37,184 bases of DNA from Candidatus Magasanikbacteria bacterium CG1_02_41_34 (GTDB lineage Bacteria > Patescibacteriota > Patescibacteriia > Magasanikbacterales > UBA922), in contig MNVD01000027.1 in NCBI GenBank assembly GCA_001871445.1, positions 1-37,184 on the forward strand. Reading direction: 5' to 3'. Below the pieces are notes generated by a model. That model made no database searches and was not told where the DNA came from. It was given only the letters and a program-made list of their open reading frames with translations. Both the position numbers and the translations under genes were made by a program. Position 1 is the stretch's first letter. Every line of letters begins with the position of its first letter. Shown piece after piece: positions 9,704-23,850 of the stretch.

Positions 9704-10261
9704 ATGAGCCAGCAGCAAAACGCAAAAACAATTGAAGGACGATTGAAACAAGATATCGACAATACGATCGATGCACTTGAGGCAAGTATCCGTGGCAATG
9801 AAACGCACATAAACGAACATGGGAAAACAGGAAGGCGAAAAAGAATTGACCCACGCGATAGGATTGCTCAGGACTATGCCAATCATGCATACAAACAACG
9901 CATTGTTTGGACATCGGTCGGATTCATCACTATCTCAATCATGAGCATGTGGGGCTGGAATATGCGAACAGTATTCTACGATGCTTCGAATGGAAAGTAT
10001 GCAGTAGAGACACCGCTCAGTACCGTTGGCGCGCGCTTTACAGAAGCCATGCAAATAGCTGGCGCAAAAGATGCGCAGGCAGAAGAATCAGAAAGCATCC
10101 GTACAGCAGCAGACGTCTTAAAAGACGTCGTTGTCGCAGCCACAGCGATAAGTACAGAAGAGGCATCACCTCCATCCACACTTGATACCCTTGCCAATAC
10201 CCTCTCGACTCACGTATCCTCTACACCAACAAGTACTGATAATACGACAACAACACCCTAG
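9704..10261 (+). CDS. Single-pass membrane protein of unknown function
   Basis: A 185-residue protein. The N-terminal 60 residues are charged and helical ([30 protein letters not shown]). One transmembrane helix follows (about residues 66-87, [19 protein letters not shown]), then an extracytoplasmic Ala/Thr/Ser-rich tail ending in [12 protein letters not shown]. No named domain is recognised. The stop is 2 nt before the gyrA start, so it is probably co-transcribed with gyrA, but nothing shows a functional link. Confidence 0.75.
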
Positions 10262-10263
10262 CT

Positions 10264-12786
10264 ATGGCAAAAAAGAAAATGATACAACCTGTAGAAAAAA
10301 TGAGCGCTGAAGAAGCATCTTCAAACATCGGGCATGTCGAACCTATTGAACTCGTCGATGAGATGCGTACGTCGTATCTCGACTACGCGATGAGTGTCAT
10401 TGTTTCTCGTGCACTACCAGATGTTCGTGATGGACTGAAACCAGTACATCGCCGTATTCTCTATGCGATGTGGAAAATTGGTCTCAGACACAATACAAAA
10501 TTTCGAAAATCCGCCCACGTCGTCGGTGAAGTGATGGCAAAATACCATCCACACGGTGACTCGGCTATTTATGACTCCCTTGTTCGTATGGCACAGGATT
10601 TTTCTATGAGAGATCCACTCGTCTTTGGGCAAGGAAACTTTGGTTCTATGGACGGCGACAATGCCGCTGCCATGCGTTATACCGAAGCAAAACTCCAAAA
10701 GATTGCCGAAGAATTACTTTTTGATATAGAAAAAGAAACCGTCGACTTTGCACCTACATACGATTCTTCTAACAGAGAACCACGTGTCTTGCCAGGACGA
10801 TTGCCAAACTTGCTCCTGAACGGAAGTATGGGTATCGCGGTTGGTATGGCAACAAATATTCCTCCACACAATTTGAAAGAATTATGTGAAGGAACCATCC
10901 ACCTGATTGAAAATTCAAAAGCAACGGTGGAAGAACTCAATGAATTTATCAAAGGACCGGACTTCCCTACCGGTGGTATCATCTATAGCAAACCAGATAT
11001 TCTTTCTGCATATTCAACTGGCCGTGGTGGTATCGTGATCCGCGCAAAAACAGATATTTCTGAAGGGAAAACTGGCACACACAAAATCGTGGTGACAGAA
11101 GTCCCATACCAAGTAAACAAATCAAAATTGATTGAAAAAATTGCAACCTTGGTACAGGAAAAGAAAATCGAAGGTATCAAAGATCTTCGTGATGAATCCA
11201 ACAAAGACGGCGTTCGTATTGTGATAGAAATGAAAAAAGATGCGTATCCAAAAAAAGTACTCAACAAATTATTCAAACTGACAGAACTCCAAACGACCTT
11301 TCACGTCAACATGATTGCACTGGTTGATGGTATTCAGCCACGACTTTTGAATCTAAAAACAGTTCTCGAAGAATATATCAAACATCGAGAAGTGGTCATA
11401 CGACGTCGTACACAATTTGATCTTAATAAAGCAAAAGAGCGTGCACACATTCTCGAAGGGTTGAAAATGGCACTCGATAAAATCGACCAAATCATCAATA
11501 CCATTCGAAAATCAAAAGACAAAGATGAAGCAAAAATAAACTTGATGAAGCAGTTCAAATTTTCTGAACGCCAAACTGTTGCCATTCTCGAAATGCGTTT
11601 GCAACAACTTGCAAACCTGGAACGAAAGAAAATTGAAGATGAATTGAAAGAAAAAATGGCACTCATCAAAGAACTCGAAGCCCTCCTCGCAAGTGAAAAA
11701 AGAATTCGTGGAGTGGTCAAAACAGAATTGCTAGAAATTCAGACACAATTTGGAAGTCCACGAAAAACTCAGATCATTGCACATGGTGTAAAAGAATTCA
11801 AAATGGAAGACCTCGTCGCAAACGAAGCAACGATCATCATGGCAACGCGAGATGGGTATATAAAGCGTATGCCAGCTGATACCTTCAAAACACAAGCCCG
11901 TGGTGGCAAGGGTGTCATCGGTCTCACCACAAAAGAAGAAGACGTCATTGAACACTTGATTGCAACCAATACGCATGACAATCTCCTCTTCTTTACCACC
12001 CGTGGTCGTGTCTTCCAACTTCGTGCCTACGACGTGCCACAGGCGACCAGAACATCAAAAGGACAAGCGCTAGTAAACTTTCTCCAGCTTGCACCAAATG
12101 AAAATGTCTCTGTAATTCTATCCATGGACGATGTCCTCAAATACAAAAATCTTGTCATGGTGACAAACAAGGGAACAATCAAAAAATCTGCTCTTGAAGA
12201 TTTTAAGAAAGTTCGTGCATCAGGACTGATTGCATTGAAACTAGCAGAAGACGATATGCTCGAGTGGGTTCGTCCATCAAGTGGCAAGGATGATATTATT
12301 ATTGCCACCAGCCAAGGACAAGCCATCCGATTTAAGGAAAGCGGTCTGCGCCCAATGGGACGCACGGCAAAAGGTGTCCGTGGCATGAAATTGAAATCAA
12401 ATGACACCGTCGTTGGCATGGATGTCGTCTCTCCAGAACTTGTGAAAATAAAAGTTCTCGAGATGCTCGTCATTTCTGAAAATGGTCTTGGAAAGAAAAC
12501 GGAACTCAATGAATACAAAGTCCAAGGTCGAGGAGGAAGTGGTATCAAGACTATGGCAGTGACGACAAAGACAGGCCCAATCATCAGTATGCGTGTTATC
12601 AACAATACTGAGAATCAAGATACTCTTTTGATTTCACGAAAAGGACAGGTCGTTCGTGTGCCACTGAAATCTGTCTCCACACTCGGCCGAGCAACACAGG
12701 GTGTTCGCATCATGCGATTCAAAGCAGAAGGCGACACCGTTGTAGGTATGGCACTCTTGCTCGGAGAAATAGAAGATGTAGAATAA
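10264..12786 (+). CDS. gyrA: DNA gyrase subunit A
   Basis: GyrA is the breakage-reunion subunit of gyrase and introduces negative supercoils with GyrB. The N-terminal region [33 protein letters not shown] (about residues 37-69) and the quinolone-region [19 protein letters not shown] are clear. The catalytic Tyr is Y139 in [10 protein letters not shown]. The C-terminal beta-pinwheel repeats include the GyrA-box, here [12 protein letters not shown] (about residue 545) instead of the common QRRGGKG, which still keeps RGGKG and supports gyrase over topoisomerase IV. The length, 840 residues, is normal. gyrB is not in the window. A terminator follows. Confidence 0.95.
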
Positions 12787-12807
12787 ATTTATATTAGAAG
12801 AAAGAAA

Positions 12808-12831
12808 AAAACATCCCGATTGGGATGTTTT
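12808..12831. terminator. Bidirectional terminator between gyrA and ruvA
   Basis: AAAACATCCC and GGGATGTTTT around a GATT loop, with an A-run before and a T-run after. It serves the convergent gyrA and the pepA-ruvA unit. Confidence 0.85.
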
Positions 12832-12882
12832 TTATGATATATTTATTGAAACAATATTTTCTGTACATTTCCAAATAAAGTT

Positions 12883-13467
12883 CTATCTAGATAATGTTTG
12901 TAAAGCATCGCGTAAGAGCTGTTCTGTCGACTTTCCTTTGGCATCACACGTGAGTGCGGCTGCTCGCGCATCTTCTCTAGAATATCCCATCGATACCAAC
13001 CCATCAATTACATCTTCGAGAATATCACCACCAACAGTCTGTCTTACATCACCATTTCCCGATCTCTTTTGCATTTTTGATTTCAATTCTACTACCATGC
13101 GCTCTGCTGTCTTCTTTCCTATCCCCTGTACAGCAGAGAGGTATTTTGCATCAGCACGAAGGATAGCATCTTCGATATCATGTATTGATCCAATCGCAAG
13201 GATGTTCATCGCGCTTTTTGGCCCGACGCCAGAAACAGATAAAAGCAATGAAAAAAATGATTTTTCTTCTTTTGTACGAAAGCCGTAGAGATCCATGGCA
13301 TTTTCTGATACTTTCATATGCGTATGAAGTTCGATTTTTTTTCCGACAGCAAGTTCTGATGCGTGCACACCCGTGAGGGTAATATCATACCCAACACCAC
13401 CACTCGTAAGAAGTACGATGGTACTATGTTCTTTTGCGTAAACGGTGCCGGTGAGGAACGATATCAT
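12883..13467 (-). CDS. ruvA: Holliday junction branch migration protein RuvA
   Basis: A 194-residue protein. It binds four-way junctions as a tetramer and recruits the RuvB motor during recombination repair. The N-terminal OB fold (MISFLTGTVYAKEHSTIVLLTSGGVGYDI), the two helix-hairpin-helix motifs (LLSVSGVGPKSAMNIL, about 78-93; LSAVQGIGKKTAERMVVEL, about 113-131) and the C-terminal RuvB-contacting helices (VSMGYSREDARAAAL) are all present. It is the last gene of the unit pepA, hypothetical, ruvA, 20 nt after the hypothetical gene. Confidence 0.95.
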   Translation of the reverse strand: MISFLTGTVYAKEHSTIVLLTSGGVGYDITLTGVHASELAVGKKIELHTHMKVSENAMDLYGFRTKEEKSFFSLLLSVSGVGPKSAMNILAIGSIHDIEDAILRADAKYLSAVQGIGKKTAERMVVELKSKMQKRSGNGDVRQTVGGDILEDVIDGLVSMGYSREDARAAALTCDAKGKSTEQLLRDALQTLSR

Positions 13468-13487
13468 AAATATAAAAAATGAAAAAA

Positions 13488-13964
13488 CTAACTTTGATTC
13501 GTGGTCAGATATGTAAAGAAGTTATCTTCATTTCCCAAAAGAAATACAGATAACGCGCCTCTGACTTCACGAGGTAATTTCTGTTCTTTCTGAATAAGCT
13601 GTGCATTTGCAACTTCCAGCAATTCTCTATCATCCCCTGCAATTTCTTTCATCTCTTTTGCTTTGTTGTATGCGTGTACAGCCTCTTGCACAACAACATT
13701 CTGTTCTTGCTCCGGTAAACCCTTTTTTATTAAAACTCTCAAAACGTATGCCTTAAACAATGGTTCAAATTGATCACTTTCTTTTTCAGGTGACTGAATG
13801 ACAAACGCGGACGGATCCGTTGGTTCATCTTCAGGTTCTGCTACAATCACTTTTGGTAATTCCGTTCCAGGCTGTGTTTGATCGTCACCGGCATCAGGCA
13901 CAGGCTTCACAAACATACTCGGATCTGTAGGCTCGTCACCTGTAAAATTTTTTCTTCTTATCAT
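13488..13964 (-). CDS. Hypothetical soluble protein with an N-terminal repeat
   Basis: A 158-residue protein with no recognised family. The first 65 residues are acidic and proline-rich and contain a repeated motif (DEPTDPSMFV and DEPTDPSAFV, about 40 residues apart), which looks like a disordered linker or a peptide tag for a partner. The rest is predicted helical (FKAYVLRVLIKKGLPEQEQNVVVQEAVHAYNKAKEM...). No signal peptide or membrane helix. It starts 5 nt after the pepA stop and precedes ruvA by 20 nt, so it is probably co-transcribed with both. Confidence 0.75.
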   Translation of the reverse strand: MIRRKNFTGDEPTDPSMFVKPVPDAGDDQTQPGTELPKVIVAEPEDEPTDPSAFVIQSPEKESDQFEPLFKAYVLRVLIKKGLPEQEQNVVVQEAVHAYNKAKEMKEIAGDDRELLEVANAQLIQKEQKLPREVRGALSVFLLGNEDNFFTYLTTNQS

Positions 13965-13969
13965 ATATG

Positions 13970-15469
13970 CTACGATAAATACTCAATCATCGTTTCAATA
14001 CCAAATCCATTGGCACCATGTCGAATCCATGGTTTTCCTTTTCCTCCATAATAACTACAGGACAAATCGATGTGCGCCCATGGATATGCAGATTCTCCGG
14101 TTTCAAAATTCTTTGTAAAAAATTCTAGAAAAGCTGCAGCAGTAGATGCCCCAGCATACCCACGTCCACCCACGTCTCCGACATTTGCGACATCCGCGAC
14201 TTCACTTTTTATCGCTTCCGTATACTCTTCTCCGAGTGGAAGGCGCCACAATTGTTCTCCTGTTTCCACACTACTTTTCATCATTTTTTCTATCATTGAT
14301 TCTTCTTGAGAAAATAATCCAGAACGTTCATTACCCAATGCGACCATACACGCTCCAGTGAGTGTCGCAAAATCAATAACTTCTTTTGGTCGGTATTTTT
14401 TTGCATAGGACAGCGCATCACATAGGATCAATCGTCCTTCTGCATCGGTATTGCCAATCTCGACAGTTTTTCCCTCCATGTTGACCAAAATATCATCTGG
14501 TCGATACGATTCCCCTCCTGGCATATTTTCACACGCTGGCATGAGAGCAACAATATTTTTCTTCAGCGCCAATGCGGCGGTAGCACGCACTGTCCCGAGC
14601 ACAGTAGCAGCGCCAAGCATATCAAACTTCATATCTGTCATATACGCACTCGGCTTCAGTGACAGTCCACCAGAATCAAACGTGATTCCTTTTCCTACCA
14701 GCACTGTTGGCTTTTCTGTTTTCTTTCCTGCCATGTATTCCATAATAATAAACTGCGGAGGAAGTGCAGATCCTTGTGCCACACCGAGAAAACATCCCAT
14801 ACCAAGATTTTTTACTTCTGCTTTTCCTAGCACGCTCACTTTTATAGACGGAAATGTTTTGGCAACGTTTTGTGCTGCTTTTGCAAGAAACACAGGAGTC
14901 ATAATAGTCGGTGGTGTATTTGCGAGATGTCGCGTTTCATTGATTGCACTCTCGAGAATTACTCCTTCTTCCATACCACTTTGCCATGCACGTTTTTCAT
15001 TGCCCGAGATGTTGAGAAATGCGAGATGTTTCAATGGCTCAACGCGTGCATCTTTTTCACTTTTGTGTTCATCAAATGCATAACTTGCAAGTCCGACTGC
15101 AAGCACCGTTTGTCGTCCAGCCTTTTTTGTACCAAATAGTTTTGTTACATCATCTGGAATAACCATTGCAAGCGATGTATATTTTTTTCCTTGCAGAGAA
15201 ATCACTGACGCACCGACGGCGTGCTTCCACGTGCGAACATTCAGATCTTTTTTTTTTCCAAGACCAATCAGAAGAACACGTGGTGTTTCCTTTTCACCGG
15301 TATAGAGAAGAGATGTTTGCAATTTTTTCCCTTCAAAATCTTTGAGCCCTCGCACATGCGAGACAACGGTCCCAAATCTTTGTATATCCTTATCGCCTTC
15401 ATCTTCAAATAAAGGCAGAATAAGACAATCTGCTTTCTGCCCTTCCTTCGCCAACGAAAATGCTGTCAT
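13970..15469 (-). CDS. pepA: Cytosol (leucyl) aminopeptidase, M17 family
   Basis: A 499-residue protein that removes N-terminal amino acids using two metal ions. The N-terminal macro-like domain (about 1-170) is followed by the catalytic domain. Metal and catalytic motifs are clear: VGKGITFDSGGLSLKP (about 255-270, with the catalytic Lys and Asp ligands), DMLGAATVLG (Asp ligand) and the M17 signature NTDAEGRL (about 337-344, with Asp and Glu ligands plus the catalytic Arg). Some M17 proteins also bind DNA (PepA in cer/XerCD recombination); no evidence here for that role. The promoter -10 at 15475-15480 suggests the mRNA starts at or next to the ATG. Confidence 0.94.
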   Translation of the reverse strand: MTAFSLAKEGQKADCLILPLFEDEGDKDIQRFGTVVSHVRGLKDFEGKKLQTSLLYTGEKETPRVLLIGLGKKKDLNVRTWKHAVGASVISLQGKKYTSLAMVIPDDVTKLFGTKKAGRQTVLAVGLASYAFDEHKSEKDARVEPLKHLAFLNISGNEKRAWQSGMEEGVILESAINETRHLANTPPTIMTPVFLAKAAQNVAKTFPSIKVSVLGKAEVKNLGMGCFLGVAQGSALPPQFIIMEYMAGKKTEKPTVLVGKGITFDSGGLSLKPSAYMTDMKFDMLGAATVLGTVRATAALALKKNIVALMPACENMPGGESYRPDDILVNMEGKTVEIGNTDAEGRLILCDALSYAKKYRPKEVIDFATLTGACMVALGNERSGLFSQEESMIEKMMKSSVETGEQLWRLPLGEEYTEAIKSEVADVANVGDVGGRGYAGASTAAAFLEFFTKNFETGESAYPWAHIDLSCSYYGGKGKPWIRHGANGFGIETMIEYLS

Positions 15470-16443: not shown

Positions 16444-19362
16444 CTATACCTTCTTCAATCCCAATCGAACTTCATGCCCAGACAGCCCGACGTTCTCACC
16501 ATCCCCTTCTACAATATCATCTGCCAACACGCTCGACATCAATTCTTCTTTAAAGTCGATAAAGACAGATTGAAGGAATGCATCGTCTGTTTTATACAAC
16601 AACACAACTCTATCCTCGCGCGTCAGTCCCTGATCCTTTCGCATCTGATTCACCGCACGGACAACTTCACGTACAAGACCTTCTTTTTTGAGATCATCAG
16701 TGATTTCTATCTGTAACAGTATAGTTTCTTCAGGTGTTTCTGGAAATAATCTTATTTCAAACCAAGCAGATTCATCTTTTTCATATTCGCTAAGATCCAA
16801 AGAAATGATTTCTTTTACATTAATTTCTTCTTTTAATACCTCTTGATATTCTGGAGGAATTTCATAATTTGATCCAATCATCAATTTCGATAATGGCTGT
16901 CTTGAATTTATTTTTTTCAATTTTCTTCCAAACAAAACTCTAGATGCCAACTCTCGTGTCATAGACATATTCTTCAATACGTCAGTCTCAATCTTGTCCT
17001 CAACGTTTGGCCACTCAACAAGATGAACAGATTCGATTTCTAGATTTTTTGATTTTTTGATTTCTTGATATATTTTTTCTGCCAAAAACGGCGTAAACGG
17101 CGCCATGACTTTACTGAGTTCAAGAAGTACATGCCCAAGCGTTGCAACGGCAGCAGCTTTGTCTACTTCGTCATCACCTTTGAATCGATCTCGACTACGA
17201 CGAACATACCACTGTGACAAATCTAGAATAAAATCCATGATAGGACGACTTGCTTCCGGCAAATTGTATGCCTCCATTCCATCTGTAACGGCTTTCTTTA
17301 ATTCTGCCAATCTTGCAAGTATCCAACGATCAAGAACATGTTGAGACTGTTGACTGTCGTCTGTTGACTGCCGTCCATCTGCAAACATCATGTAAAACTC
17401 AACCACATTCCACAGTGTATTCACAACTTTGTTGTACACTTCTCTGACACCGGTCTCAACAAAGTTCAAATTTTCTGCCTGCATGACTGGCGACGTCACG
17501 AGATAATATCTCAGTGCATCCGCACCATATTTTTCGAGCAACTCATTTGGGTCTGGATAATTCTTCAGCTTCTTGCTCATTTTCTTTCCATCTTCTGCAA
17601 GCACAATACCGTTCACGATGACATTCTTGAATGCTGGTTTTCCTTTGATCGCGCTCGCAATGATGTGCAGATAATAAAACCATGCACGTGTTTGATCTTG
17701 CCCTTCTGCAATACATTCTGCAGGAAATCCTTGCTCAAAAACTTCTGGATGTTCGAATGGATAATGCACCTGTGCGTATGGCATAGAGCCAGAATCAAAC
17801 CACGTATCGAGCACGTCGGGAACACGGGTATAGGTCTTTCCATCTTTTTCAAACGTAATCTTGTCGACGATATGTTTGTGCAGATCGTCTACTTTTTGTC
17901 CTGACAATGTTTCGAGTTCTTCTACGGATCCAATACATATTTGATCACCATCTTCACTTTGCCAAATAGGAATCACCGATGCCCAAAATCGTTGACGAGA
18001 AATAGACCAATCTCGCGCACCTTCGAGCCACTTTCCAAAACGACCTTCCTTGATATGTGCAGGAGACCAATTGATATCTTCAGCAAGTTCGAGTGCTTTC
18101 TCTTTTACTTTTGTGACATCAACAAACCAACTATCTGTTGCGTAGTTGAGAAGTGGTGTATCACAACGCCAACAGTGTGGGTAGCTGTGTTCGTATTTTT
18201 TCTTTGCAAATAATTTTCCATTGTACGCGAGCCACTTCACGATTTCAATATCCGTTGCCATGTGATCCTCTACCGGCTTCACATGCATGCCAGCAAAATC
18301 GGTCACTTCTTTTTTGAACAATCCATCCATACCAACATGCTGGATGAATGGCACTTTTTCTTTTTTGAATACTTCGTAATCGTCTGTGCCAAATGCAGGC
18401 GCGAGATGAACAAGTCCAGTTCCATCATCAGTCGTCACAAAATCTGCTGTCACGACACGGAAACTATTTTCGCTATCAGCATAATATGGAAAGAGTGGCT
18501 CGTACGTAAGTCCAACCAAATCTTTTCCACGCACTTGTGCTAATACTTCAAATTCTTTCCCTTCAAAATTTGCCATCAACAAATCTTTTGCAACTACATA
18601 GTGTGCGTCTTCAAACTTCATCACGCTGTATTCCAAATCTTCTCCAACCGCAATCAAGACATTTCCTGGCAATGTCCATGGCGTCGTTGTCCATGCAAGC
18701 AAGTATGCATCACCATCAATATCAAGTTTTTCTTTTGCATTGGTAAGTCTGAATTTTGCAGTAACCGAAATATCTTTGATATCTTTGTACCCTTCACTCA
18801 CTTCTTGTTGTGATAATGTCGTCTCGCAACGAGGACAAATATGCATTGGCTTGTAGCCTTTGTAGATATATCCAGCATCCCAAAGTTCTTTGAATACCCA
18901 CCACACAGATTCCATATACTTCACATCCATCGTACGATATGCATGCTTCATATCTACCCAACGTCCAAGTCGATGAATGGTCTTTTCCCATTCACTCACA
19001 TACCCAAGCACTTTTGAACGACAGAGTTCATTGAATTTTTCAACACCCATGTCCTCGATATCTTTTTTACTTTTTGTACCAAGTTCTTTTTCAACAATGT
19101 TTTCAATCGGCAATCCATGACAATCCCATCCCCATACGCGATTGACACGATGCCCTTTCATCGTTTGATATCGAGGGACAACATCTTTCATCACTGAACC
19201 AACGATGTGACCATAATGTGGCAGCCCAGTTGCAAATGGAGGGCCATCATAAAAAACATACGCATTATCAGCAGATCTCTGGTCTATAGATTTTTGGAAC
19301 GTGTCGTTCTCTTTCCAGAACGATAATATTTCATGTTCGTGTTTACTGGCATTGTATGGCAT
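16444..19362 (-). CDS. ileS: Isoleucyl-tRNA synthetase
   Basis: A 972-residue class I synthetase that charges tRNA-Ile. The HIGH motif appears as HYGH (residues 49-52) within PPFATGLPHYGHIVG. WGWDCHGLPIE follows, the CP1 editing domain occupies about 180-400 with TTPWTLPGNV, and KMSKS appears as GKKMSKK near residue 594. A zinc-type CPRCETTLSQQEVSEGY motif lies near residue 178. The C-terminal anticodon-binding part is long and lacks the C-terminal zinc finger of E. coli IleS. This layout matches the eukaryote/archaea-like (type 2) IleS, a form often linked with mupirocin tolerance. Expression is probably controlled by the T-box leader at 19429-19640. Confidence 0.95.
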   Translation of the reverse strand: MPYNASKHEHEILSFWKENDTFQKSIDQRSADNAYVFYDGPPFATGLPHYGHIVGSVMKDVVPRYQTMKGHRVNRVWGWDCHGLPIENIVEKELGTKSKKDIEDMGVEKFNELCRSKVLGYVSEWEKTIHRLGRWVDMKHAYRTMDVKYMESVWWVFKELWDAGYIYKGYKPMHICPRCETTLSQQEVSEGYKDIKDISVTAKFRLTNAKEKLDIDGDAYLLAWTTTPWTLPGNVLIAVGEDLEYSVMKFEDAHYVVAKDLLMANFEGKEFEVLAQVRGKDLVGLTYEPLFPYYADSENSFRVVTADFVTTDDGTGLVHLAPAFGTDDYEVFKKEKVPFIQHVGMDGLFKKEVTDFAGMHVKPVEDHMATDIEIVKWLAYNGKLFAKKKYEHSYPHCWRCDTPLLNYATDSWFVDVTKVKEKALELAEDINWSPAHIKEGRFGKWLEGARDWSISRQRFWASVIPIWQSEDGDQICIGSVEELETLSGQKVDDLHKHIVDKITFEKDGKTYTRVPDVLDTWFDSGSMPYAQVHYPFEHPEVFEQGFPAECIAEGQDQTRAWFYYLHIIASAIKGKPAFKNVIVNGIVLAEDGKKMSKKLKNYPDPNELLEKYGADALRYYLVTSPVMQAENLNFVETGVREVYNKVVNTLWNVVEFYMMFADGRQSTDDSQQSQHVLDRWILARLAELKKAVTDGMEAYNLPEASRPIMDFILDLSQWYVRRSRDRFKGDDEVDKAAAVATLGHVLLELSKVMAPFTPFLAEKIYQEIKKSKNLEIESVHLVEWPNVEDKIETDVLKNMSMTRELASRVLFGRKLKKINSRQPLSKLMIGSNYEIPPEYQEVLKEEINVKEIISLDLSEYEKDESAWFEIRLFPETPEETILLQIEITDDLKKEGLVREVVRAVNQMRKDQGLTREDRVVLLYKTDDAFLQSVFIDFKEELMSSVLADDIVEGDGENVGLSGHEVRLGLKKV

Positions 19363-19428
19363 AGGATAGAAAGCTAAGAAGGCTTGAAAAGCTCGGGAGA
19401 CTGAGAATGATCCAGGTTTTCTTCAAAT

Positions 19429-19640
19429 AAAAAAACACCGCATGCTCAGGGGCCCAATATTTGGACGGTACCACCCTGATATGGTGCTCATTACAGCGCT
19501 AACGGGCTTACCCGGAGAGGTCTATACCCCGCCTTTCGTGAAAGGCGCGGGTTCTTCTCCCAACGCGTCGTGACTTTATCGTGTACCTTTGTGGTACTAC
19601 GATTGTGGTATCACGGCTCCCTGTTGATAGCAGGTCAAGC
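19429..19640 (-). promoter_or_regulatory. T-box riboswitch leader of ileS
   Basis: The minus strand carries the T-box core AGGGTGGTACCG (complement 19461-19474 area), which pairs with the CCA end of uncharged tRNA. Upstream are a compact stem I (CGTGA/TCACG, ATCGT/ACGAT and GTACC/GGTAC in one nested arm, about 19616-19567) and a CGCCTTT/AAAGGCG hairpin. Downstream, CAGGG/CCCTG and CACC/GGTG can form a terminator ending in seven U (19435-19429) about 65 nt before the ileS ATG. This fits transcription attenuation: uncharged tRNA-Ile stabilises the antiterminator. The short stem I lacks obvious distal loops. Candidate isoleucine specifiers are AUA (19579-19577) on the 3' side of the internal loop or AUC (19603-19601). 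Confidence 0.85.
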
Positions 19641-19661
19641 ATTGTTGTAATTGTTATCTAT

Positions 19662-19690
19662 ACAGTAATAAAAAATTGCTTTGTTGTCAA
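19662..19690 (-). promoter_or_regulatory. Promoter of the T-box/ileS transcript
   Basis: Minus strand TTGACA (19690-19685) and TACTGT (19667-19662), spacer 17. It starts only about 23 nt after the reverse transcriptase stop codon. Confidence 0.55.
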
Positions 19691-19712
19691 TAGAATGAAA
19701 AAGTAGATAGCA

Positions 19713-20720
19713 TTATGCTTCGCTCAAAAGCCAGTGCATATTCCTCAATTCCTGCTCGACGTTGTATGTATCTCCGTGCGATAAAAGCCCAAGATATGAG
19801 ATGAACACCTCGTCTTTGGGATTATCAACAAATTTTCTGAACATGCGTTCTTTGGTCTTTCTTCGGAGTATGGTGTGATGTGGAAAGCGAACCCAGCCGA
19901 GAAAATCTACTCCTGAAAATACTGACTCTAGGGTAACTTTACTCGGATGAAGTTCAAGGTGCAATCTGTCACACAGAAAATGGCTTATCGGCTGAATAAG
20001 AGAGTGAAGTTCGTTCTTGTCTTGCGAAAGAAAAACAAAATCATCGGCATACCGAATATAGTATTTCTGTTTCAATACATGTTTTACCCACTGATCAAAT
20101 ATGTTCATGTATACATTGCCAAATAATTGCGAAGTAAGATTGCCAAGAGGCAGTCCTGCTTCACGTCGCCTTTCACCATGGTAGCTGTCTATAATGTTTT
20201 GCAAAAGCCACAGAATGTCTTTGTCGGAAATATGCACTGAAAGGATTGCCATAAGCACCTCGTGATCAATGCTGTCAAAAAACTTTCTGATGTCGCACTT
20301 GAGCACCCAGCACGTTTTTGTATGGTTTTGCCCAACCTTTCGAGCGAACGTATCGAATCGGTCTATGGCTTTGTATACGCCCTTGCCAAGACGGCATGAG
20401 TACGAATCATGTATAAATATTTTGTCGAAGTGCGGATAGAGCTTGCGGTAAACAGCATGGTGAAGCAAACGGTCTTGCACGCTCGCTTTATGGATATGAC
20501 GGCGTTTCGGGTCGTTAATAAAAAAGCTCTTGTAATCACCGTGCAGATACGTTTTATCCGTTAGTTTTTCTCCAAGTGATACAATATTGTCTATGAGGTG
20601 AATGGAAAACTCCTCGACATCGGGCTTTGAACTTTTGCCAACCAAAAACTCGCTCCATGCAGAGTACAGATTTTCAAGAGAAAATATATCGCTATAAACT
20701 AAATCACATTTATTTTTCAT
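19713..20720 (-). CDS. Diversity-generating retroelement reverse transcriptase
   Basis: A 335-residue RT. It copies the TR RNA with errors at adenines, and the cDNA replaces the VR of the target gene (mutagenic retrohoming). Motif A (LKCDIRKFFDSIDHEVL, about residue 142), the DGR hallmark LGNLTSQ inside GLPLGNLTSQLFGN (about 190; group II intron and other RTs typically have QGxxxSP here), the catalytic YADD (about 223) and FLGW follow the usual order. No maturase or endonuclease domain is present. I chose the ATG at 20720 because upstream residues of the longer frame overlap avd on the other strand. The gene lies in the same orientation as TR and target, about 410 nt beyond TR, but avd lies between them on the opposite strand. 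Confidence 0.93.
   Translation of the reverse strand: MKNKCDLVYSDIFSLENLYSAWSEFLVGKSSKPDVEEFSIHLIDNIVSLGEKLTDKTYLHGDYKSFFINDPKRRHIHKASVQDRLLHHAVYRKLYPHFDKIFIHDSYSCRLGKGVYKAIDRFDTFARKVGQNHTKTCWVLKCDIRKFFDSIDHEVLMAILSVHISDKDILWLLQNIIDSYHGERRREAGLPLGNLTSQLFGNVYMNIFDQWVKHVLKQKYYIRYADDFVFLSQDKNELHSLIQPISHFLCDRLHLELHPSKVTLESVFSGVDFLGWVRFPHHTILRRKTKERMFRKFVDNPKDEVFISYLGLLSHGDTYNVEQELRNMHWLLSEA
20671..20698 (+). promoter_or_regulatory. Candidate avd promoter inside the RT gene
   Basis: TTTTCA (20671-20676) and TATAAA (20693-20698), spacer 16. It lies within the first codons of the RT on the other strand, the only place an avd promoter could be this close. Confidence 0.35.
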
Positions 20721-20736
20721 GTTATGCAATACAGCT

Positions 20737-21093
20737 ATGAATTCCCCTCTCAGTAATTCCGACATTCCAATCCTCGCCAAGCTCGGTGAGGCGTATAAGT
20801 CATGGCATTTGTACATTCAGCACGTGCCGAAGATTACCCGCTTCACGCTCGGTGCTAAGATAGACAATCTATTTACCGAGTGTATTCACCTTGCACTCCT
20901 CGCCAGTCATCAACCAAGAGAGAAAAAATCGGAAACGATTGAACTGCTCAATAACAGATTTGATTCGCTCAAGTTCTTTTTGAAACTTTTGTGGGAAGTC
21001 AAAGCGATAAATACAAACGTCTTTACGCAGATTAGCATACAACTTGCAGAAGTTGGACGAATGATTGGCGGGTGGATGAAACATAGCCGATAA
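20737..21093 (+). CDS. avd: Avd-like accessory protein of the DGR (four-helix bundle)
   Basis: A 118-residue helical protein. Avd forms a basic pentameric barrel that binds the RT and template RNA and is required for retrohoming in studied DGRs. The family pattern is visible: DIPILAKLGEAYKSWHLYIQHVPKITRFTLGAKIDNLF, a helix pair in the middle (RFDSLKFFLKLLWEVKAI) and the conserved end QLAEVGRMIGGWMK. The ATG at 20737 is favoured over 20719, whose ATG overlaps the RT start codon on the opposite strand. Unusually, it is transcribed away from the RT: the two genes are head to head with overlapping 5' ends, whereas avd and RT usually share a strand. Confidence 0.85.
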   Translation: MNSPLSNSDIPILAKLGEAYKSWHLYIQHVPKITRFTLGAKIDNLFTECIHLALLASHQPREKKSETIELLNNRFDSLKFFLKLLWEVKAINTNVFTQISIQLAEVGRMIGGWMKHSR

Positions 21094-21096
21094 ACA

Positions 21097-21119
21097 AACC
21101 CCGCCATTTCGGCAGGGTT
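21097..21119. terminator. Hairpin between avd and the template repeat
   Basis: AACCCCGCC and GGCAGGGTT (one G-U pair) around a 5-nt loop, 3 nt after the avd stop. On the minus strand it follows TR and precedes TTTGTTT, so it could end both the avd mRNA and the TR RNA. Confidence 0.6.
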
Positions 21120-21130
21120 GTTATGAAAAG

Positions 21131-21246
21131 ACTCGCAGACGGCCAGGAACTCGTAGTTTGGATTCCATTTGTCGTTGTCGATGTTCTGGTTGAGGTTCCG
21201 TTCGTGGTTGTTCTCGTTTACGATGAACGCAGCACGCGAGCCGCCG
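21131..21246 (-). repeat. DGR template repeat (TR)
   Basis: These 116 bp align without gaps to the VR at 21706-21821. There are 19 mismatches, each at an A of the TR on the minus (coding-sense) strand; no G, C or T of that strand differs. About 30 A lie in the variable core (21158-21219), so 19 of 30 are changed. Both edges are constant: 27 bp at 21131-21157 (corresponding to the VR 3' side, the expected homing-initiation end) and 27 bp at 21220-21246. In sense orientation it is rich in AAC/AAT codons, which open to many amino acids when A is randomised. Confidence 0.95.
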
Positions 21247-21503
21247 CAAAAATTGTGTAATGAGACATCCATAACACTGCCCGCCGATTGCTCGGCATGG
21301 CTGTATTTAATATGGAGACGTTATCTCTCTACCACACTACACCGAGTATTTTCATAAGGAACAAAACGACAGCACTGCACGCAAAGCCGTAACCTTGCAT
21401 ATTCTCACTTATCGCAGTGTCCAGATTTCAATCGCCCAAAGCTTTATCCGCCGAAGTTTTTAACGTAGGCGGGCGTAGCCGTGGACTGAAACATTTACTT
21501 TCC
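21247..21503 (-). ncRNA. Probable 5' part of the TR RNA, non-coding
   Basis: There is no convincing gene in this stretch. From the promoter at 21511-21519 a transcript would run about 257 nt before reaching TR and could end at the hairpin at 21119-21097, making an RNA of about 400 nt. A frame starting at 21272 runs into TR, but it has no counterpart in the target upstream of VR and is probably a relic or chance. Confidence 0.5.
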
Positions 21504-21510
21504 GTTTGGA

Positions 21511-21519
21511 ATTATAGCA
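21511..21519 (-). promoter_or_regulatory. Extended -10 promoter upstream of TR
   Basis: TGCTATAAT on the minus strand: a consensus TATAAT with the TGn extension. No good -35 box. The predicted start is near 21504, heading into TR and then the RT gene. Confidence 0.6.
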
Positions 21520-21534
21520 TAAAATGAAGCACCC

Positions 21535-21579
21535 CGCGCGTTACTCGTTCTTTCGAACTTTCACACGCGGGGTGTAGGT
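21535..21579 (-). terminator. GC-rich hairpin with GAAA tetraloop, probable end of the target mRNA
   Basis: The outer stem CACCCCGCG/CGCGGGGTG encloses GTTC-GAAA-GAAC with a GNRA-type loop. It is followed by CTTCATTTT on the minus strand and lies between the target gene and the TR promoter. Exact ends are approximate. Confidence 0.6.
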
Positions 21580-21599
21580 AGTCGCTCGGTCGGCGTCGA

Positions 21600-21681
21600 C
21601 CCCCGACTACGTCGGGGGAAGAAACCAAGTGTCCCTGCCTGCCGGCAGGCAGGCAAGTGACCAATCCCGACTGAGTCGGGA
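21600..21681. repeat. Three palindromes just downstream of the variable repeat
   Basis: CCCCCGAC-TAC-GTCGGGGG (21600-21618), the perfect 20-bp palindrome CCTGCCTGCCGGCAGGCAGG (21634-21653) and TCCCGACTGAGTCGGGA (21665-21681). The last lies 24 bp past the VR end. A hairpin/cruciform at that side of VR is known to help target recognition in the Bordetella phage DGR. The 21665 copy belongs to the same 17-nt family as the copies in the tRNA-Ile array. Confidence 0.8.
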
Positions 21682-21703
21682 AAGGCCACAAGGACCCAAG
21701 TGA

Positions 21704-22297
21704 CTACTCGCAGACGGCCAGGAACTCGTAGTCCGGATGCCACCGGCCGTCGTCGACGTCCTGGTCGAGGCTCCGTCCGAGGTCGCTCCCGTCCACGATG
21801 AACGCAGCACGCGAGCCGCCGATGAAGGCGACCAGAGGGTAAGCTCCCCGCCCGAGCTGCTTGTCCTTGGCGGGCGGCAGAAGGGCCTCCGCGGCGTTGG
21901 GCTCACGCAGACCACGCTCGCGACAGTAGACCTTGAAGTCGTCGCGGTAGACCCACCCGTCGGTGCGCTTGAGCTCCTCGCCCGAGATGAGGAGGTACCG
22001 CACCTTGACGACGCTCTCCCCGCTGACGGGGTAGTTCTCGTCGGTGATGGCGGGGTTGACATACCCCTCGTACTTGGCCTCCTGCACGTTCCGACTGACC
22101 ACATTGGGTCCGAGCATGAGCTCGTGCTCAATGATCTTCTCGTCGACACCGACGAACTTCCCCTCGACCAGATCCTGCAGTGCCTTCAGGGCACGCTGCG
22201 GATCGTAGGGGTACTCCGTCTGTCCGACCTGCCGACCGATCTCGGCGAGCTTCCTCGAGAACTCTCTGCACTGATCGCCCGTGAGCTTGTAGCTCAT
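21704..22297 (-). CDS. DGR target protein with C-terminal variable region
   Basis: A 197-residue protein. The last 39 residues (from GGSRAAFIV to YEFLAVCE) are encoded by the VR, and such DGR targets usually end in a C-type-lectin-like fold where the variable residues form the binding surface. Compared with TR, 15 residues differ (for example Asn to Asp, Ser or His; Glu to Gly; His to Leu; Lys to Arg). The N-terminal part starts with a helical segment (LTGDQCREFSRKLAEIGRQ) and a YPYDPQRALKALQDLVEGKF motif that I cannot name. No signal peptide or membrane helix, so export is not evident. The start at 22297 has AAGGAGG 6 nt upstream. GC-rich codon use differs strongly from ileS and rpiB. Confidence 0.88.
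   Translation of the reverse strand: MSYKLTGDQCREFSRKLAEIGRQVGQTEYPYDPQRALKALQDLVEGKFVGVDEKIIEHELMLGPNVVSRNVQEAKYEGYVNPAITDENYPVSGESVVKVRYLLISGEELKRTDGWVYRDDFKVYCRERGLREPNAAEALLPPAKDKQLGRGAYPLVAFIGGSRAAFIVDGSDLGRSLDQDVDDGRWHPDYEFLAVCE
21706..21821 (-). repeat. DGR variable repeat (VR)
   Basis: The VR copy of the TR ends at the target's stop codon (TAG at 21706-21704). The 19 substitutions relative to TR, read on the coding strand, are 16 A-to-G, 2 A-to-C and 1 A-to-T. Confidence 0.95.
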
Positions 22298-22360
22298 GAC
22301 AACCTCCTTGGTGTGACATACATCGCCAGTTATCCTAACCAACAATGCATGTCGTGGTTT

Positions 22361-22418
22361 GACTGGAGGAAATCCCCAGTCTTCTTTTGGTGTACTTGGC
22401 TTAAATACGCCAAAAGAA
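22361..22418 (-). promoter_or_regulatory. Two leader hairpins upstream of the target gene
   Basis: TTCTTTTGG/CCAAAAGAA (22418-22382) and GACTGG/CCAGTC (22381-22361) would form in the target leader, about 60 nt before its start codon. A weak promoter match (TTGTCA, TATACT, spacer 15) lies upstream near 22430-22460. A regulatory role is inferred only. Confidence 0.4.
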
Positions 22419-22483
22419 TACAAGCAGCTCCAGTATATATCAAAGAACAAATTGACAATTATTTTTAACACAATCTCACTATT

Positions 22484-22511
22484 TTGTCAAGTTCCTCCCC
22501 TATGCTACAAT
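22484..22511 (+). promoter_or_regulatory. Promoter of rpiB
   Basis: TTGTCA (22484-22489) and TACAAT (22506-22511), spacer 16. The leader of about 75 nt contains two inverted repeats, TCCCGCAAAGCGGGA (22542-22556) and ATCCCG/CGGGAT (22556-22573), which share a base and are partly alternative. Confidence 0.6.
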
Positions 22512-22593
22512 GAACACATCTAGGAACGAATTTGTTAATCGTCCCGCAAAGCGGGATCCCGTCTCTGCGGGATTACTAGTTAGTTGTTAATTT

Positions 22594-23055
22594 ATGTACA
22601 CTGGCCCTCTCTCTATCGCCTCCGACCACGGTGGCTACAAATTGAAAAAGCGACTCGTCCGTTTTATTGAAAATGAATTGAAAGGTGAAGTAGAAGACAT
22701 GGGCCCACACGAATACGAAGAAACGGATGACTACCCAGACTACGTTGTGCCACTTGCAGAAAAAGTGAGTTCAGAAGGTGGACGTGGCATTGTCATTTGT
22801 CGCAATGGCATCGGTGTTTGTATCACTACAAATAAAGTACATGGCATCCGCTGTGGTATCGGCTACAATATCGACGTCGCAGAATCCATGATGAAAGATG
22901 ACAATACCAATATCCTTGCCCTCGCTGCAGATCATCTCTCCGAAGATCATGCGATGGCAGTAGTGAAGAAGTGGCTGGAGACAAAGTTTAGTGAAGCAGA
23001 AAGACATGTACGACGGCTCACGAAAGTGGCAGCACTTGATGTGCAGAAAGAGTAA
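22594..23055 (+). CDS. rpiB: RpiB/LacAB-type sugar-phosphate isomerase
   Basis: A 153-residue protein of the family that interconverts ribose-5-phosphate and ribulose-5-phosphate (RpiB) or related sugars. The N-terminal SDHGGYKLKK (residues 9-18), YPDYVVPLAEKV (about 49-60) and the active-site Cys region VICRNGIGVCITTNKVHGIRCG (about 67-88) are present. In most RpiB this reads CGTGIG; here the GT pair, which helps bind the phosphate, is RN, so the substrate might differ. The next gene is an Rpe-like epimerase, which supports a role in the non-oxidative pentose phosphate route. Confidence 0.88.
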   Translation: MYTGPLSIASDHGGYKLKKRLVRFIENELKGEVEDMGPHEYEETDDYPDYVVPLAEKVSSEGGRGIVICRNGIGVCITTNKVHGIRCGIGYNIDVAESMMKDDNTNILALAADHLSEDHAMAVVKKWLETKFSEAERHVRRLTKVAALDVQKE

Positions 23056-23060
23056 AGATT

Positions 23061-23151
23061 ATCTTTTTGCTTTCGCAAAAAAAAGATTGAAGATTGGTTT
23101 TTTAGTCTTTAATCTTATTTCGATGTAATCGAAATAGAGTCTTCAATCTTT
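23061..23151 (+). terminator. Terminator and nested inverted repeat between rpiB and rpe
   Basis: First hairpin: ATCTTTTTGC/GCAAAAA-AAAGAT (23061-23087). It overlaps a larger structure, AAAGATTGAAGA (23082-23093) with TCTTCAATCTTT (23140-23151), which encloses TATTTCGAT-GTA-ATCGAAATA (23116-23136). The two cannot form fully at once. Confidence 0.6.
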
Positions 23152-23190
23152 CCCCGCACTAGTTCATAACAACGATTTACCCAAAAACCT

Positions 23191-23850
23191 ATGATCCAAA
23201 TTATCCCTTCCATCCTCGTTCCAGATGAAGCAACATTTATTGCATGGTCACAAGCAGTAGAAGAAGTACTGCCCATGATCCAGCTCGACATCGCAGATGG
23301 CAAATTTGTTCCAAATGACACCTGGGCAGATCCTGATGTAGTCAGTGAACGGCTACACATCGACTGTGAACTCCATCTCATGGTTGCTGACCCACTCGAA
23401 GAAATACGTATTTGGGAAGAAGTGCCACAGGTAAAACGCGTTCTTGTTCATTATGAATCTGATCCAGACAATATAAAAGATATTCTTTCTCAGGTACAAT
23501 CATACGGCTGGGAAGTAGGTCTTGTGTTGAATCCTGAAACACCTATCGATGTCGTAGATGATCTGATTGAAGATATCGATGCACTCATGTTCATGGGCGT
23601 TGTCCCCGGAAAACAAGGTCAACGATTTATTCCAGAAACAATCGATAGAATAAAAGAAGCTCGTGAAAAATTTCCTCGCTTGTTTATAGAACTCGATGGT
23701 GCAGTCAATGAAGACACGATCGAAGATATTGTGAACGCGGGCGTCAGTGCCGTATGTCCAGGGAGTGCAATTTTTGGGAATGAACGGAAACCAGCGGAGA
23801 ATGTAAAAAGAATGCGAGAGCTTATACACAGGTTGACTGAGCAAAAGTAG
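23191..23850 (+). CDS. rpe: Ribulose-phosphate 3-epimerase-like TIM barrel
   Basis: A 219-residue protein of the family that interconverts ribulose-5-phosphate and xylulose-5-phosphate. Family markers are visible: IIPSILVPDE at the N-terminus, QLDIADGKFVPN (the first Asp-containing catalytic strand), CELHLMVADP (metal-binding His), FMGVVPGKQGQRFIPE (phosphate and loop region), IELDGAVNEDT (second catalytic Asp) and CPGSAIFG (phosphate site). Some motifs deviate from classical Rpe (for example DGHFVPN is DGKFVPN, removing one typical metal His), so a related hexulose-phosphate activity cannot be excluded. It follows rpiB on the same strand. Confidence 0.85.
   Translation: MIQIIPSILVPDEATFIAWSQAVEEVLPMIQLDIADGKFVPNDTWADPDVVSERLHIDCELHLMVADPLEEIRIWEEVPQVKRVLVHYESDPDNIKDILSQVQSYGWEVGLVLNPETPIDVVDDLIEDIDALMFMGVVPGKQGQRFIPETIDRIKEAREKFPRLFIELDGAVNEDTIEDIVNAGVSAVCPGSAIFGNERKPAENVKRMRELIHRLTEQK

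Follow-up and report, generated by a model that had tools for sequence, protein, structure and literature searches.

The window analysed here is a 37,184-nucleotide stretch of DNA that makes up the entire contig 16 in the genome of Candidatus Magasanikbacteria bacterium CG1_02_41_34 (1.04 Mb, 36 contigs, 96.75% complete). It contains a complete diversity-generating retroelement (DGR) of a patescibacterium, with reverse transcriptase (RT), Avd, TR, VR, and target all intact (Table 1), which confirms what had been proposed in an earlier reading of the sequence alone (hereafter, the sequence-only reading). The TR and VR align without gaps over 116 nt and, exactly as that reading had it, differ only at adenines: the 19 mismatches all fall on the 35 A of the TR (19/19) and none on its C, G, or T (0/81; hypergeometric P = 1.4e-12), with 16 changes from A to G, two to C, and one to T. 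A direct-repeat search of positions 19,000–23,500 recovered this pair independently as the sole direct-repeat family, and no further TR/VR copy was found in the whole 1.04 Mb genome. Identity at 81/81 non-A positions would fit recent homing. DGRs as such are a known kind of element, and their earlier description from CPR bacteria (Patescibacteria), which the sequence-only reading had mentioned, is borne out by the accessible text of Roux et al. 2021 (PMC8144416).

Table 1. Features of the DGR locus (window coordinates) and GC-rich orphan genes on two other contigs of the same genome (G000).
Feature	Position	Strand	Basis
DGR-type reverse transcriptase, 335 aa, LGNLTSQ and YADD	19713..20720	-	PF00078 7.5e-25; phrog_1423 6e-105
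bAvd-like accessory protein, antisense to TR/RT	20719..21093	+	profile searches; start overlaps RT start; alternative in-frame start 20737
Terminator-like hairpin immediately past TR, with T-rich tail (arms 21111-21119 / 21097-21105)	21090..21119	-	sequence
TR	21131..21246	-	repeat search and ungapped alignment
Predicted structured 5' scaffold of template RNA (P1, P2, P3)	21247..21505	-	covariation; start inferred from -10 box
Scaffold part under covariance model R1 (P2 ~21378-21401; P3 closing stem 21255-21342)	21251..21406	-	R1 124.5 bits, E 9e-27 (score not independent)
Extended -10 promoter-like element TGCTATAAT	21511..21519	-	conserved position across loci
GC hairpin (CACCCCGCG/CGCGGGGTG)	21530..21574	-	sequence; just upstream of putative template-RNA promoter
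VR 3' flank, CTTGG-type repeats and three palindromes (21600-21618, 21636-21655, 21665-21681)	21600..21705	-	3' VR flank alignment
VR, last ~39 codons of target	21706..21821	-	repeat search and ungapped alignment
Target gene, 197 aa: helical N-terminus (1-47) and C-type-lectin-like domain (52-197)	21704..22297	-	ORF and AlphaFold model; 64% GC in 42% GC genome
GC-rich orphan genes, contig 19 (L105)	471-1388, 10093-11697, 11949-13778, 14264-14779	-	GC3, Pfam
GC-rich orphan gene, contig 20 (L106)	13514-14308	+	GC3, Pfam

The RT gene, whose start we set at 20,720 rather than at the longest-ORF start (20,816), adjoins the TR/VR pair and carries both motifs that had been picked out from its translation. 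RT relatives occur in 43/86 genomes of the order, one of them (in G012) being 75% identical and set in the same layout as in the window; the window RT very probably belongs to DGR clade 2 (assigned without an RT tree), a clade restricted to Patescibacteria according to the accessible text of the survey (PMC8144416). The neighbouring Avd-like gene, likewise foreseen, scores above the cut-off of Pfam bAvd (PF22296; 48.3 bits, cut-off 40), matches PHROG Avd (3e-17), and stays under the cut-off of NCBIfam DivGenRetAVD (70.2 bits, cut-off 80); its strand is the opposite one. This orientation is general: avd was found in 107 of 131 RNA-anchored loci (some loci counted twice) and lay on the opposite strand in 107/107. 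Among loci of the order with a detectable TR/VR, the usual layout is target and VR, a gap of 300–460 nt, TR, 0–63 nt, opposite-strand avd, and an RT whose start coincides with that of avd or lies close to it; exceptions are few (L079 has a second, distant target and L082 a TR downstream of the RT). In the DGR of phage BPP-1, avd, TR, and brt all point in one direction, and RT–Avd is recruited by a structured spacer located 3' of the TR (PMC12875486; PMC8867640, accessible text). Tested for this arrangement, the window element was found not to have it.

The VR is, as had been read, the 3' end of the target gene, an intact ORF with its stop codon at 21,704–21,706. The target family has no match in Pfam, NCBIfam, or PHROG, peptide-pattern scans of genomic and viral contig collections returned no relative, and whole-genome searches found scattered homologues in 7/86 genomes of the order (its own genome counted); no signal peptide is obvious by eye. 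Modelling of the C-terminus, where the sequence-only reading had suspected a C-type-lectin fold, supports that suspicion: the AlphaFold model (pLDDT 82.5, above 85 in the C-terminal part) is uncertain for two N-terminal helices and confident for a domain beginning at residue 52, and in a VIA-align comparison of residues 52–197 nearly all rows were either C-type-lectin domains (CTLDs) or folds of the formylglycine-generating-enzyme type, the best Z being 7.4 (2.9 Å). Foldseek with the same model gave no significant E-value (E >1), and because of this and a Z below 8, we place moderate confidence in a predicted C-type-lectin fold of the variable domain. Elsewhere, N-terminal modules of ~50 aa are common to different DGR targets, in which they are fused to unrelated middle domains (L050/L057/L060/L074, L051/L058/L083/L087, and L055/L078).

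The target is also compositionally unusual, its GC3 being 0.87 versus a mean of 0.35 (sd 0.08) for genes of the genome. A-to-G mutation by the DGR was rejected as the origin of this GC-richness: the depletion affects T along with A, and DGR-less homologues of the target are GC-rich, too. Other genes of this AT-rich genome are likewise GC-rich (GC3 0.74–0.92) and lack any Pfam match, and the target may therefore be one member of a broader group of GC-rich orphan genes. Throughout the phylum, DGR targets are GC-rich compared with their surroundings, the 300 nt 5' of the VR exceeding the RT region in 74/74 loci (L048–L161; mean 0.57 vs 0.40).

The homing stem-loops of BPP-1 sit in the region 3' of the VR. 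By analogy, the VR 3' flank of the window would be the corresponding place and may have the corresponding role. In a DGR-less homologue of the target (L011, 7686–8256), from a genome in which no RT was detected, the 3' end is still VR-like and is followed by a CTTGG-type flank near-identical to that of the window. The idea that CTTGG repeats tag all GC-rich genes of the genome was rejected, as none occurs elsewhere in the 374 kb sampled. The GC hairpin between this flank and the putative template-RNA promoter is a probable target-gene terminator. The window DGR as a whole is located between ileS and rpiB–rpe (16,444–23,850). At this junction, G060 (L061) has a DGR, G114 (L128, another order) an RT-less cassette, G071 (L069) a target homologue, and the congener G035 (L142) other genes, one of them GC-rich; judged from these loci, the site seems to receive insertions repeatedly. 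A T-box-like motif (AGGGTGGTACCGTCC, 19,464–19,480, minus strand) that Rfam does not recognise is present in the leader preceding ileS.

What the sequence-only reading missed is the RNA itself: the ~260 nt between the putative promoter and the TR are, on the evidence of covariation, a conserved structured RNA. RNAalifold predicted 33 pairs from 16 leaders, with compensatory changes in 27. Our covariance model of P2–P3 (R1; P1 lies outside it) was built from 14 loci, the window being one of them, so that the window's own score is not independent. In 50 R1 hits from loci not used in building, 95.9% of pair cells are standard and 29/32 pairs are changed on both sides; 464 cells are changed on both sides, versus 131 when shuffled and 50–104 when slid, and sliding the partner by 1–3 columns lowers pairing to 37–49%. 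Pair counts from R1-guided alignments are biased towards the model, a bias that is answered here because a sequence-only alignment of 39 of the 50 independent hits yields the R1 fold again. The P1 stem, into which the window copy has inserted an extra hairpin, covaries in 74 sequences (71–74 of 74 paired per position, with many pair types), and the P3 closing stem ends directly before the TR (model end to TR start, median 0 nt in 110 independent TR/VR pairs). An Rfam 15 covariance search of positions 19,300–22,600 returned no relevant match at gathering level or at E ≤ 1.

Signals that could delimit a transcript flank this RNA and the TR. An extended -10 box (TGNTATAAT-like), ~75 nt before P2, reaches threshold in only 81/127 loci, versus 13/127 shuffled, and 67/81 of these boxes fall inside one 10-nt interval. 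Under a tightened criterion (a looser one matched 85/127 shuffles), 98/117 loci have a terminator-like hairpin with a T-run 100–160 nt past the R1 end, compared with 9 shuffled and 12 random segments. In the first 130 nt 3' of the TR, RNAalifold predicted no consensus structure, on which ground we rejected the idea of a conserved RNA extending through the antisense avd. Taken together, the positioned -10 box, the scaffold, and the terminator after the TR point to a template RNA that appears to be a self-contained transcript of ~400 nt. The earlier remark that the layout might not be known was a good hunch, the antisense avd and this putative transcript being the interesting part of the element.

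At the level of order, class, and phylum, matches to R1 occur in 29/86, 115/381, and 69/380 genomes, respectively, and at least 100 of the 149 hits in the class are followed on their own strand by a DGR RT, at a distance of 148–636 nt (median 552). Among the class RTs listed, ~56 of 156 lack a nearby R1 hit, for which contig ends, divergence of the RNA, or a different type of RNA may account; the scaffold is therefore not universal even in CPR DGRs. A 28-nt P3-loop pattern, searched over 84,980 species, gave at least 80 records, all 80 of those listed matching R1, and a single match in a viral collection, also R1-positive; among the listed matches with a named lineage (many are titled only ‘bacterium’), all are Patescibacteria but one titled Planctomycetota and one titled Rokuibacteriota. 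The contigs so titled (L177 and L192, respectively, the latter locus with 63% GC) each carry R1 RNA, RT, and antisense avd, and would reflect either transfer or misbinning. Judged by its matches, the scaffold RNA can serve as a marker for the same DGR elements across a whole phylum.

Additionally, the RNA occurs without an RT in the downstream sequence examined (at least 1.5 kb) in 25 rows, corresponding to ~22 distinct loci. Scaffold, TR, and VR are all present in L110, L128, and L129, with 14/15, 21/21, and 13/13 mismatches on A, and tblastn, which divergent RTs may escape, found neither RT nor avd within ~5 kb of them. RTs are encoded elsewhere in G114 and G155, and G054 has partial RT matches elsewhere; L127, L131, and L132 look decayed. 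The ~22 loci suggest non-autonomous cassettes, which genomes could carry because the template RNA, as proposed here, is self-contained.

The mutation spectrum was compiled from 110 TR/VR pairs, selected because A accounts for 80% or more of their mismatches. In these, A is changed at 54% of positions and non-A at 0.65%, and A becomes G in 61%, T in 22%, and C in 17% of changes; A before C becomes C in 3%, a figure confounded by codon selection. The RT of BPP-1 in E. coli shows 59% C misincorporation, that is, A to G (PMC12875486), so A to G is the leading change in both, and the A-to-G excess of the window (16/19), considered as an oddity, was rejected as one in view of these two values. The low A-to-C rate before C differs from BPP-1, in which it is raised.

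We regard it as highly probable that the locus is a complete DGR and that its template RNA is transcribed as a unit of its own, on the grounds of the A-only TR/VR pattern, the gene identities, the conserved layout, the RNA covariation, and the positioned promoter and terminator. In the mechanism that we propose, the extended -10 promoter would start an RNA read from right to left, whose first ~260 nt would fold into the three-part scaffold, with P3 closing directly before the TR; the TR would follow, and the terminator hairpin would end the transcript just before the antisense avd. RT and Avd would bind the scaffold, the TR would be copied with misincorporation opposite adenines, mostly giving A to G, and the cDNA would replace the VR at the 3' end of the target, altering the ligand face of a C-type-lectin-like protein. 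From sequence, we infer transcription, RT–Avd binding by the scaffold, present-day retrohoming, and the function of the target.

Duplicates of ~84% identity do occur, and the TR and VR might be an ordinary diverged pair; with every difference on one base of one strand, at the P value given above, and with the same kind of asymmetry in 110 relatives, we consider the chance of this negligible. A less remote reading takes its cue from the position of the leader: leader and terminator upstream of a gene, here an RT downstream on the same strand, have the anatomy of attenuation, and the folded RNA could be a regulatory 5' UTR (attenuator or sensor) for read-through past the terminator into the RT rather than a binding scaffold of the template RNA. 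We judge this improbable, given that ~22 loci keep the RNA without an RT nearby, some (L128 and L129) with A-only TR/VR mismatches, that the RNA abuts the TR at a fixed distance, and that an antisense avd intervenes between RNA and RT.

Improbable, too, is a BPP-1-like design in which the needed structured RNA also lies 3' of the TR, within the antisense-avd strand, the 5' scaffold being a mere addition. In BPP-1, the structured spacer that separates TR from brt is indeed required (PMC12875486; PMC8867640, accessible text), and the antisense strand of avd occupies its place, into which transcripts could read through; yet the terminator-like hairpin stands right after the TR in most loci, ileS starts within ~150 nt of the TR end in the RT-less cassette L128, and no consensus structure was predicted directly 3' of the TR. 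A separate template RNA with a 5' scaffold remains the preferred reading.

The element is like the Bordetella phage BPP-1 DGR (mtd-avd-TR-brt) in its RT, Avd, A-only TR/VR differences, VR at the 3' end of a predicted C-type-lectin target, and predominance of A to G, which BPP-1 shows in vivo (PMC12875486), and unlike it in its antisense avd, the terminator-like hairpin after the TR, and the conserved scaffold 5' of the TR. With DGR clade 2 it shares host phylum, cellular location, and A bias, whereas the template-RNA scaffold, antisense avd, and RT-less cassettes are not mentioned in the accessible text of that survey, which took RT genes as its starting point (Roux et al. 2021; PMC8144416). 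Separate template ncRNAs, with targets or incomplete loci served in trans, have parallels in the Trichodesmium TR RNAs (cited in PMC8867640) and the trans-acting DGRs of PB-PSB1 (PMC10907252), in other hosts and with no common scaffold reported in the accessible parts of these papers. The template-RNA architecture is new as far as Rfam 15 and the openly readable literature go, and an earlier mention is possible.

Among bacterial systems for directed protein hypermutation, DGRs are the best known, and work on their mechanism rests, to our knowledge, almost entirely on one phage element. We think it likely that patescibacterial DGRs use a permuted template RNA—5' scaffold, TR, and terminator, from its own promoter—that constitutes an uncatalogued RNA family, and that non-autonomous cassettes of target, scaffold, and TR without an RT are diversified in trans and have been overlooked by RT-based surveys. 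Searches based on the RNA can reach DGR cassettes that RT searches miss, and a self-contained template module that could act in trans is a possible engineering handle. A phylum-wide, covariation-supported scaffold lying on the opposite side of the template offers a directly testable alternative DGR design.
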